A DNA stretch of 32,776 bases from an uncultured Alphaproteobacteria bacterium (GTDB lineage Bacteria > Pseudomonadota > Alphaproteobacteria > Bin95), in the NCBI GenBank assembly GCA_937891825.1, contig CALAHN010000045.1:1-32776 (forward strand). Reading direction: 5' to 3'. Below, one piece after another: positions 4,990 through 18,104 of this stretch. The notes beneath the pieces were generated by a model. The model was not told where the DNA came from and did not search any database. It saw only the letters and a list, made by a program, of their open reading frames with translations. How positions within the stretch are numbered: the first letter of the stretch is position 1; each line of letters starts with the position of its first letter. Both the position numbers and the translations under genes were made by a program.

Positions 4990-6924
<1,935 letters not shown>

Positions 6925-15207: not shown

Positions 15208-16293
15208 ATGAAGACTTTCAGAGTGCGGGCGGCTGTCCTGGGGGCGGCGCTTCTGGCGGCGGCTTGCTCAAACGGCCGCGACGACAAGGGCGCGCGGATC
15301 GCCGCGCTCGAAACTCAATTGCAACAGACCGAAACGGCGCTCGCGCGGGAACGGGCCGAGAATGCGGGCGCGCCAGCGCCGCCGTCCGCCGACACGGCGA
15401 CGAGCGGAAATGGCGATAGTTTGCCGCCGAACGCCGAGCCAGGGCATTGCTATGCGCGGGTCCTGGTCCCGGCGATCTATCGCACCGTCTCGGAGCGGGT
15501 GCTGATCGAGCCTGAAGGCCAGCGCGTCGAGACCACGCCCGCGACCTACGGCATCGAAACCCAGCGCGTTCTGGTGCAGGAAGCCTCGGAGCGGATCGAG
15601 GTGCGCCCGGCCGAATACCGGACGGTGACCGAGCAGATCCTGGTGGAGCCGGAGCGTCGCGAACTGGTCGCCGTGCCCGCGGTCTACGAGACCCGGACCG
15701 ACCGGGTGCTGGCCCGCGCCGCCTATACGACCTGGAAGAAGGGCCGCGGACCGATCGAGCGGCTCGATGCGGCGACCGGCGAGATCATGTGCCTCGTCGA
15801 AGTGCCGGCGGAGTACCGCACGGTTCAGCGCCGGGTGGAAGTGAAGCCGGCGATGACGCGCGAGGTCGTGCATCCGGCGGTCTACCGGACGATCACGAAG
15901 CGCGTCGTCGAGCGCCCGGCGCAATCGCGGACCGTCACCATTCCACCGCGCTATGAAACTCTGGAAGTGCGCGCTGTCCGCACGCCGGCGCAGCAGCAGA
16001 CAGTCGTGACCCCGGCACGCTATGCCGACGTCCCGAAGCGCGAGAAAGTCGCCGACGAGCGGCTGGCGTGGCGCGAGATCCTCTGCGAAACCAACACCAC
16101 CGCGGATGTGGTGACGCGCCTGCAACAGGCGCTCAAGCGGAAGGGCTTCGACCCCGGGCCGATCGATGGCGTCTATGGCTCGCAGACGGCGGCCGCGGTC
16201 AATGCCTACCAGCGCCGCGCCGACATGCCGAGCGGCGGCCTGACCCTCGGGACGCTCGAAAGTCTGGGCATCCCGCTGGGCGGCGTCGAGTAG
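15208..16293 (+). CDS. repeat lipoprotein with C-terminal peptidoglycan-binding domain (paralog 1)
   Basis: 361 residues. A lipoprotein signal ends at the lipobox LAAAC (Cys20), followed by a short helical segment (RIAALETQLQQTETALARER) that could form a coiled coil and a Pro/Ala linker. Residues 87-290 are eight 23-residue repeats of the form [IV]PAxYxTVTERVxVxP, interrupted after repeat 4 by a 20-residue insert (179-198). Cysteines sit at 81, 195 and 293, at the edges and centre of the repeat array. The end (TADVVTRLQQALKRKGFDPG, PIDGVYGSQTAAAVNAYQR) matches the PG_binding_1 domain. Expected location is the periplasm, lipid-anchored, touching peptidoglycan. The family is seen in other proteobacteria as uncharacterised protein; no function is known to me. 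A paralog follows directly. Confidence 0.9.
   Translation: MKTFRVRAAVLGAALLAAACSNGRDDKGARIAALETQLQQTETALARERAENAGAPAPPSADTATSGNGDSLPPNAEPGHCYARVLVPAIYRTVSERVLIEPEGQRVETTPATYGIETQRVLVQEASERIEVRPAEYRTVTEQILVEPERRELVAVPAVYETRTDRVLARAAYTTWKKGRGPIERLDAATGEIMCLVEVPAEYRTVQRRVEVKPAMTREVVHPAVYRTITKRVVERPAQSRTVTIPPRYETLEVRAVRTPAQQQTVVTPARYADVPKREKVADERLAWREILCETNTTADVVTRLQQALKRKGFDPGPIDGVYGSQTAAAVNAYQRRADMPSGGLTLGTLESLGIPLGGVE
15466..16077 (+). repeat. eight 23-residue protein repeats with central insert (paralog 1)
   Basis: Units start at residues 87, 110, 133, 156, then after a 20-residue insert at 199, 222, 245 and 268. Each is 23 residues and opens with a Pro-Ala or Pro-Pro pair three residues before a near-invariant Tyr. 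Alternation of hydrophobic and charged residues suggests beta-hairpins. The period was counted directly from the translation. Confidence 0.85.
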
Positions 16294-16354
16294 CTCGATG
16301 GCCTGCGCTTGCCGGACCCAAGACGAACGCGCTAACCGAAGGGAAGCAATCCCG

Positions 16355-17509
16355 ATGCGCATTGCGCTCAGAACCCTGGCTGTCGCCGCATTGGCCTTGC
16401 TGGCCGGCGCCTGCTCGACCATGACCGAAGAGCAGATCGCGGTGAACCAGCTGCGGATCGAAACGCTGGAGCAGCAATTGGCGCAAAGCCAACTCCAGCA
16501 ACAACAATATTCCGCGCAATACAACGCCGTCAGCACGGAGAATGCGCGGCTGCGCAGCCAGATGGCGACGCTGCAACGGGCGCCGACCCCGCCGCCGGCG
16601 ACGCCGAGCGGCCCCTATGCCGGCGCCAACGGCCTGTTGCCGCCGAATGCGAAGCCAGGCGAATGCTATGCGCGCCTGTTGATCCCGGCGCAGTATGAGA
16701 CCCGCCAGGAACGCATCCTGATCGAGCCGGAGGGCGAGCGCATCGAGACCATCCCGGCGCGCTATGAGACCGTGACCGAGCGCGTTGAGGTCCGCGAGGC
16801 GTCCGAGCGGCTGGAAGTCGTGCCGGCCGCTTATCGCACGGTGACCGAGCGCGTTATGGTCGAGCCGGAACAGGAAATCCTGGAGCCGATCCCGGCCACA
16901 TACCGCACGGTGACCGAGCGCATTCTCGTCCGTGACGGCTACACGACCTGGAAAAAGGGCCGCGGCCCGATCGAGCGACTCGATGCGGCGACCGGCGAGA
17001 TCATGTGCCTGGTCGAAGTGCCGCCCGAATATCGAACGGTGACCAAACGGGTTACGGACCAACCCGCCGGCGCGCGCAAGGTGGTGAAGCCCGCAGTCTA
17101 CCGGACCGTGACCCGCCAGGTCGTCGAACGGCCGGCTGCGACCCGCCGCGTCGCCATCCCGCCGAAATACGAAAATGTCACTCTGCGCAAGATGGTCGAG
17201 CCGCCCGCCAACCGCCGCATCGTGACTCCAGCGCGCTATGAGACCGTGACGCGCAGGGAAAAGACTGCGGACGAGCGTCTCGAGTGGCGCTCGATCCTCT
17301 GCGAGACCAATACGACGCCGGGCGTCATCGCCAATCTGCAACGGGCGCTGCTTCAGGCCGGGTTCAATCCCGGCCCGATCGACGGACGCTACGGCCGGGC
17401 GACGCGAGGCGCGGTCGAGCGCTATCAACGCTCGAAGGGCCTGCCGCTCGGCGGCATCACGATGGATACTCTCAGGCAGCTTGGCGTGCAGCCGGGCCGC
17501 CAAACCTAA
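16355..17509 (+). CDS. repeat lipoprotein with C-terminal peptidoglycan-binding domain (paralog 2)
   Basis: 384 residues from the ATG at 16355, preceded by GAAGGGAAG. Lipobox LAGAC with Cys20; then a longer Gln-rich helical segment (LRIETLEQQLAQSQLQQQQY) that is probably a coiled coil. Residues 110-313 hold the same eight 23-residue repeats and central insert as the upstream paralog, with cysteines at 104, 218 and 316 in matching positions. The C-terminal domain (TPGVIANLQRALLQAGFNPG, PIDGRYGRATRGAVERYQR) is PG_binding_1-like. Around the insert a run of 25 residues starting TTWKKGRGPIERLDAATGEI is identical in both proteins, which points to recent duplication or gene conversion. An upstream in-frame start at 16298 would spoil the signal peptide. 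Function unknown. Confidence 0.9.
   Translation: MRIALRTLAVAALALLAGACSTMTEEQIAVNQLRIETLEQQLAQSQLQQQQYSAQYNAVSTENARLRSQMATLQRAPTPPPATPSGPYAGANGLLPPNAKPGECYARLLIPAQYETRQERILIEPEGERIETIPARYETVTERVEVREASERLEVVPAAYRTVTERVMVEPEQEILEPIPATYRTVTERILVRDGYTTWKKGRGPIERLDAATGEIMCLVEVPPEYRTVTKRVTDQPAGARKVVKPAVYRTVTRQVVERPAATRRVAIPPKYENVTLRKMVEPPANRRIVTPARYETVTRREKTADERLEWRSILCETNTTPGVIANLQRALLQAGFNPGPIDGRYGRATRGAVERYQRSKGLPLGGITMDTLRQLGVQPGRQT
16682..17293 (+). repeat. eight 23-residue protein repeats with central insert (paralog 2)
   Basis: Units start at residues 110, 133, 156, 179, then after the insert (202-221) at 222, 245, 268 and 291. Most units contain YRTVTE or YETVTE, and spacing is exactly 23 residues. 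The array length equals that of the upstream paralog. Confidence 0.88.
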
Positions 17510-17564: not shown

Positions 17565-18104
17565 TTGAAGCCGACCCGCAGAGCTGCGCTCGCCTGGCTT
17601 GCGGCGAGCGTCACAGCGGTCAGCGGCCTGGGCGCCGGCGCAGCCGCGCCCGCCGCGCCGCCACCGCGCTTCCGGCCGCTAGGACGGACCGAGGTCTTCC
17701 CCGATGTGGCGTTCAAGGATCGCGCCGGACGGGAGATCGGCTTCGTCGAATTGCGCGGCCGGCCGGTCGTCGCGGTGTTCTGGGCGACCTGGTGCGGCGT
17801 CTGCCATGGCGAGATGCCGAAGCTGAACCGCCTGCAAGCCGCGCTCGCGGACAAGGCCTGGATCGTGCCGCTTTCGATCGACCGCGGCGGCATGCCGGTC
17901 GTCGACCGCTATTTTGCCCGGCGCAAGCTGAACGCGCTGACGCCCTATCTCGATCCGGAGCAGATGTTTGCCGCCATCATGGGGATACGCGGCGTGCCGA
18001 CGGCATTTGTGCTGGATGCCGCGGGCCGGATGGCCGCGGTCGCGGAAGGTCCGGTCGATTGGGAGAGCGCCCAGGTCCGCCGCTATCTGCTGGCTTTGGC
18101 TTGA
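17565..18104 (+). CDS. exported TlpA/DsbE-like thioredoxin-fold protein
   Basis: 179 residues from a TTG at 17565 preceded by GGGGAGA. The N-terminus (MKPTRRAALAWLAASVTAVS) has twin arginines and a hydrophobic stretch, so export by Tat or Sec is expected. The thioredoxin active site is WATWCGVCHGEMPKLN, with a CxxC pair followed by the TlpA-type EMP. A cis-proline segment (GIRGVPTAFVLDAAGR) follows at the usual place. Proteins of this group reduce or isomerise disulfides in the periplasm, for example in cytochrome c maturation, but no such genes are here. It follows the cysteine-containing repeat lipoproteins, and shared transcription is likely (gap about 55 bp). Confidence 0.85.
   Translation: MKPTRRAALAWLAASVTAVSGLGAGAAAPAAPPPRFRPLGRTEVFPDVAFKDRAGREIGFVELRGRPVVAVFWATWCGVCHGEMPKLNRLQAALADKAWIVPLSIDRGGMPVVDRYFARRKLNALTPYLDPEQMFAAIMGIRGVPTAFVLDAAGRMAAVAEGPVDWESAQVRRYLLALA

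Follow-up and report, generated by a model that had tools for sequence, protein, structure and literature searches.

Adjacent lipoprotein genes of an uncultured alphaproteobacterium encode 23-residue repeat proteins that likely form giant beta-hairpin stalks

Two adjacent genes in the window, the whole 32,776-nucleotide stretch of alphaproteobacterial DNA analysed here, encode repeat lipoproteins, each of which is likely a giant antiparallel beta-hairpin stalk with both anchors at its base and a conserved tip at its far end. The hairpin topology is well supported by equal arms, an antiparallel covariation register and an apex turn. In function, the proteins may be wall-anchored stalks that present their tip.

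Both genes lie on the forward (+) strand, as do all of the features listed here, and are separated by a gap of 61 bases; their products share 61% identity across 293 aa and the same order of parts: lipobox Cys20, helical segment, PPNAxPGxCYAR, four units, a 20-residue insert, four units, W-R-x-I-L-C-E-T-N, and a PG_binding_1 domain. Gene A (15208..16293, 361 aa) starts with a signal peptide and lipobox LLAAAC containing Cys20 (15208..15267), followed by the base cysteine Cys81 (15448..15450), which lies opposite Cys293 in the fold-back register, arm 1 with four 23-residue units (residues 88–179, 15469..15744), the tip formed by the conserved 20-residue insert with Cys195 (residues 180–199, 15745..15804), arm 2 with four units (residues 200–291, 15805..16080), the base cysteine Cys293 in the motif ILCETN (16084..16086), and the PG_binding_1 domain (residues 301–351, 16108..16260). 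Gene B (16355..17509, 384 aa) has a signal peptide and lipobox LLAGAC with Cys20 (16355..16414), a helical segment (residues 25–74, 16427..16576; pLDDT 93–95 over most of the segment), the base cysteine Cys104 (16664..16666), arm 1 with four units (residues 111–202, 16685..16960), the tip with Cys218 (residues 203–222, 16961..17020), arm 2 with four units that partner arm 1 along i+j = about 418 (residues 223–314, 17021..17296), the base cysteine Cys316 (17300..17302), and the PG_binding_1 domain (residues 326–367, 17330..17455). In both proteins, the three conserved cysteines beyond Cys20 are located ahead of the first block, inside the insert, and past the last block.

The units begin with P-A-x-Y at residues 88, 111, 134, and 157 and 200, 223, 246, and 269 of gene A and at residues 111, 134, 157, and 180 and 223, 246, 269, and 292 of gene B, with a repeat period of exactly 23 and an insert of exactly 20 residues in each. 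BLOSUM62 autocorrelation at lag 23 was 0.05 for A and 0.25 for B, whereas 500 shuffles of each sequence never exceeded −0.27 and −0.29, respectively, and PF01471 scored 45.5 and 41.4 bits, above the curated cut-off of 23 bits, marking the C-terminal domain as a putative peptidoglycan binder. The unit positions, autocorrelation, and PF01471 score thus confirm the initial annotation, which had described two adjacent lipoprotein genes of one plan with 4+4 exact units, an insert, and a PG_binding_1 domain; the length difference between the two proteins also sits in the N-terminal segment, as had been claimed, with a confident helix at residues 25–74 of B. Each signal peptide ends in a lipobox with Cys at +1, as expected of a lipoprotein, and the Ser at +2 would fit outer-membrane sorting by the E. 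coli rule. No OmpA match was found in A or B, where PF01471 is present instead, and a Pal/OmpA-type wall anchor was therefore rejected.

The unit consensus is P-A-x-Y-x-T-V-x-E-R-V-L-V-x-P-A-x-x-x-x-x-x-I. Searches with Pfam and NCBIfam gave no significant model over the repeats of A and B, nor did Pfam over those of eight relatives, and in a PDB profile search (profile A2) the matches were limited to the wall-binding domain, with none on the repeat. A known repeat family was accordingly ruled out as the identity of the repeat, in agreement with the earlier view that it resembles no named family. Our literature search on repeat lipoproteins, long hairpin stalks, and two-stranded envelope ribbons likewise found nothing that names this repeat family, and by database and literature searches the proteins appear to form an undescribed class, as had been proposed. 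HxsA (TIGR03979) gave a weak match (E 5e-11) via the C-terminal wall-binding region of the window protein; membership was rejected at 43 and 37.6 bits against a cut-off of 121.65.

To compare unit numbers across the family, a position matrix was applied to 121 non-redundant relatives with 2–6 units per block from Alphaproteobacteria, Gammaproteobacteria, and further groups represented by MAGs. The arms were equal throughout: 67 proteins were 4+4, 41 were 3+3+3+3, five were 3+3, five were 2+2, two were 6+6, and one was 5+5. Blocks start after a cysteine and stop before a cysteine, and the cysteines around the last block are spaced by 52, 75, 98, or 121, following 6 + 23n. Two relatives (L109 and L111) were scored unequal through degenerate units that the matrix missed, their cysteine spacing still fitting equal arms; another two (L107 and L124) were scored unequal and judged equal by eye, and incomplete or degenerate proteins were left unscored. 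The sole clear exception is a 10+6 relative (L112/L133), in which the near-identical units of arm 1 probably reflect a recent expansion. It adjoins a 4+4 paralogue (L112 and L133 at G612:C2, L133 on the minus strand with an open frame of 441 aa). The largest equal-arm members, both 6+6 (L171, 103–1851, and L188), have an inter-arm insert of 43 to 51 residues, and one four-block gene (L193, G926:C1) carries an in-frame stop and occurs in two identical-scoring copies in its genome. The six unit-number classes require at least five changes, and 13 on the best tree built from the sequence outside the repeats, which is poorly resolved. Different unit-number classes have their cap and insert sequences in common, which indicates that the number of units changed in both blocks once the two-block plan existed.

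The equal unit numbers led us to suspect that the arms pair, and we therefore examined covariation between block 1 and block 2 using APC-corrected mutual information, with other registers and other block pairs of the same sequences as controls. The first 44 4+4 proteins showed an antiparallel register at a+b = 84 with a z score of 9.6, a measure that does not correct fully for relatedness, while the best parallel register reached 2.9 and shuffles did not exceed 3.1. The 23 later-fetched 4+4 proteins alone gave a z score of 6.8 at 83, and all 67 together gave 10.8 for the antiparallel and 3.4 for the best parallel register. For the four-block proteins, the predicted register is 84 − 23 = 61; the M2 × M3 pair scored 7.3 at 60 and the M1 × M4 pair 6.2 at 61, whereas the other four block pairs scored 0.4 to 1.4 at 61. 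Inside the blocks, an i,i+2 beta-strand pattern scored 9.5. Between the arms, stacking of the facing units gave scores of 7.2 for long strands and 8.4 for short strands, with other unit offsets at or below 2.8. The enriched facing residue pairs were K-D, E-K, E-R, and W-K/R, plus G-P at the joint; charges were swapped between facing positions of the two arms as in salt-bridge swaps, and Gly and Pro were swapped at the joint. In 66 of 81 proteins, the C-terminal half was the more basic one, but an acidic arm 1 against a basic arm 2 has many exceptions and was kept only as a minor supporting observation.

The register was then transferred to a remote subfamily of one-unit (1+1) relatives, in which turn type had played no part in deriving it. 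These relatives (L014, L123, L127, L129, L132, and L197–L214) are small lipoproteins in which each arm has a single unit and PG_binding_1 is combined with two cysteines. They come from a taxonomic family resembling Rhodobacteraceae (taxonomy inferred), where at least 66 of 120 genomes carry the gene, in one copy (E 1e-30). The residues at the apex were D-G or N-G in 16 of 19 sequences, with Gly there in 19 of 19; D-G and N-G are the classical tight beta turn.

AlphaFold2 modelled a 3+3 relative (L055) with a mean pLDDT of 88.9 and a pTM of only 0.40, so that the model was read as a strand pattern and not as an arrangement of the arms; 12- and 7-residue strands alternate in it, with two-residue breaks at the Pro-Ala joints, and its C-terminal domain matched SltB3 with a VIA Z of 10.8. 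The gene B model was confident in the helix and good at the repeat ends but poor in mid-arm (pLDDT about 45), and its fold search returned a confident match for the wall-binding domain only. A search of the repeat part against the PDB gave no confident match (model pTM 0.40). The weak matches included long hairpin stems of pore-forming proteins at chance level (VIA Z 2.0–3.2, rmsd 4 to 12), several of them with the tip aligned close to the model's midpoint; these would agree with a long fold-back but prove nothing.

In the proposed fold, the units of block 1 would form arm 1 and the 20-residue insert the tip, and block 2 would run back, pairing with arm 1 residue by residue so that residue i of gene B faces about 418 − i. 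Each unit would consist of a 12-residue and a 7-residue strand split by Pro-Ala type joints that lie level in both arms, and length would be altered by one unit in both arms per step. Pairing of the arms would bring the N-terminal helix and the C-terminal wall-binding domain together at one end, so that both the peptidoglycan-binding domain and the helical linker carrying the lipid anchor would exit from the base. Projecting from this fixing point at the outer membrane and wall, the hairpin would show its tip loop to something else. An arm of about 105 residues would extend some 35 nm if straight, an upper bound calculated at 0.33 nm per residue, and the proline joints may bend it. A two-stranded ribbon that stands alone with about 100 residues in each arm is unusual, and partners may be needed.

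The base of the hairpin is probably closed by the two conserved base cysteines (Cys104 and Cys316 of gene B), which would meet there and could form a disulfide. Of the 55 two-block proteins that possess both, 54 have them two positions away from exact symmetry, an offset attributable to their fixed spacing. The pair is retained where the insert cysteine is missing (1+1 members, L091, and L106), and the last cysteine is missing in some relatives without the wall-binding domain. Few parts are as conserved as the insert, whose tip loop reads WKKGxGPIxRxDxATGEIMC and in which W199, G202, G204, T213-G-E-I216, and C218 are invariant in 37 sequences, and we therefore propose it as a docking loop at the tip of a base-fixed stalk. 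A further possibility, which we put forward tentatively, is that these represent a new class of repeat protein, length-tunable zipper stalks that sit with their base on membrane and wall and whose tips are joined either to a partner or, via the odd tip cysteine, to one another, serving as a periplasmic ruler or bridge.

Other arrangements were weighed against the hairpin. The initial annotation had read the proteins as a tether or spacer, and its two anchoring parts, the lipidated N-terminus (by sequence) and the wall-binding domain, were borne out. A straight spacer between a lipid anchor and a peptidoglycan-binding domain at opposite ends was not: the chain order of the domains and the presence of the lipobox and PF01471 suit it, but the equal arms, the antiparallel ladder, the nested pairing in four-block proteins, and the D-G apex turn of the minimal relatives need a fold-back, and the hairpin is kept in relatives that lack the lipid anchor or the wall domain, so that this reading is largely refuted and very improbable. 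We consider it just as improbable that each block forms its own meander sheet or solenoid, with equal counts inherited from an ancestral block duplication. Although the AlphaFold2 strands break every 12 and 7 residues, which would permit tight turns, there was no hairpin covariation within blocks (scores no higher than 3.0 in the complete set), and the caps and insert shared between classes indicate that units changed in both blocks after the two-block stage.

Two further rivals keep the antiparallel pairing or the ribbon itself and place it in a larger assembly. Since covariation is blind to whether pairing is intra- or intermolecular, the two blocks could pair between molecules of a swapped dimer, in which the insert would be an extended link and its conserved odd cysteine would be available for a bond between molecules; the tight D/N-G turn of the one-unit relatives leaves no room for swapping, and we regard such a dimer as quite unlikely. 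Single hairpins could also be subunits that join edge to edge in a beta tube or sheet resembling the stems of pore formers, an idea compatible with the two free edges of the ribbon and with the presence of such stems among the best weak fold matches (VIA Z 2.0–3.2). Both strand faces, however, mix charged residues, Thr, and Val without a single oily face, and the stem matches are at chance level, which makes this assembly unlikely. We therefore favour the single hairpin stalk.

An alignment search identified 56 loci in named genomes, spanning Alphaproteobacteria and many Gammaproteobacteria (Vreelandella, Alloalcanivorax, Amphritea, Neptuniibacter, and Chromatiales) as well as MAGs labelled Campylobacterales, Desulfobulbaceae, Desulfuromonadales, and Myxococcales; patterns inside the insert were used for this collection, so that insert-less relatives are under-sampled. 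The class of the window matched in 15 of 385 drawn genomes (E 1e-10), and a second class, probably from Gammaproteobacteria (taxonomy inferred), in 46 of 369 (E 1e-25). Within the window's own taxonomic family, the repeat lipoprotein is almost confined to the window's genus. The tandem gene pair was found in the window, in L010 and L030 of the same genus, and once elsewhere (L112/L133), and was absent from the other named loci; the survey of paired occurrence suggested earlier thus shows the pairing to be a feature of the window's genus and not of the whole family. Many relatives (L049–L054, L056, L059, and L060) have neither the lipid anchor nor the helical segment but an ordinary signal peptide, and others (L095, L113, L116, L120, and L124) lack the wall-binding domain, which leaves the hairpin as the part common to all and the anchors as exchangeable. 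No match was found to plasmids (72,556) or phages (50,697) or in viral contigs, and relatives searched against plasmids gave none either; a plasmid or phage origin was ruled out on these grounds.

Among known envelope proteins, the C-terminal domain of A and B belongs by sequence, and that of L055 by fold, with PG_binding_1 proteins such as SltB3, SleB, and CtpB, but A and B have no enzyme domain and carry PG_binding_1 fused to the repeat hairpin. Pal, Lpp, PapS, and DalA are outer-membrane lipoproteins that combine a lipid anchor with wall contact, as predicted for A and B. PapS (PMC11369160) and DalA (PMC10470522) are alphaproteobacterial lipoproteins linked to the wall-synthesis machinery, and PapS carries an OmpA-like domain (PMC11369160), unlike A and B. 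DalA of R. sphaeroides is about 18 kDa (PMC10470522), and the one-unit relatives are near it in size. Whereas RSP_1199 (YkuD) and RSP_1200 (DalA) have consecutive locus tags, a crude motif search of the flanks of the one-unit genes revealed no YkuD (L,D-transpeptidase) gene. Periplasmic adaptors of the HlyD/AcrA type have an alpha-helical hairpin whose two arms lengthen or shorten in concert by whole repeats; our proteins are alike in these paired steps but differ in having 23-residue beta units instead of alpha-helical heptads, and no relationship in sequence was seen. Single-layer beta proteins are represented by the middle sheet of OspA and the G5-E rods of SasG/Aap, which share a Lys-, Glu-, Thr-, and Val-rich beta structure without a clear one-sided oily core, whereas here two repeat rows would pair across a fold-back and no confident PDB match was obtained.

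An adjustable protein stalk made of zipped repeat rows seems not to have been described before, and it shows how protein length can change in paired steps. Most Alphaproteobacteria lack Lpp (PMC10470522), and the family adds a candidate contact between outer membrane and wall for this class. A widespread envelope family whose main part had so far been without a model gains a testable fold, a residue register, and an equal-arms rule, and the register is precise enough for the direct design of cross-links.

Gene neighbourhoods were also compared. A gene for an exported thioredoxin-fold (Redoxin/AhpC-TSA) protein with WCGVC, a candidate member of the system (17565..18104, + strand), starts 55 bases downstream of gene B, and a thioredoxin-fold gene also follows the pair in L030 and the gene B homologue in L029. 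In L045, a thioredoxin-like gene (5199–5588) lies upstream of the repeat lipoprotein homologue. Such neighbours hint at thiol chemistry on the hairpin cysteines, in two lineages only. A conserved operon was rejected as a clue to function, the 56 loci sharing no neighbour gene and the top clusters occurring in 4 to 10 loci. By eye, a Sel1-repeat-like gene adjoins the repeat lipoprotein gene in four gammaproteobacterial loci (L036, L038, L039, and L047), and a small LysM/BON Kbp-like protein is encoded just upstream in L037, L041, and L048 and two genes upstream in L039.
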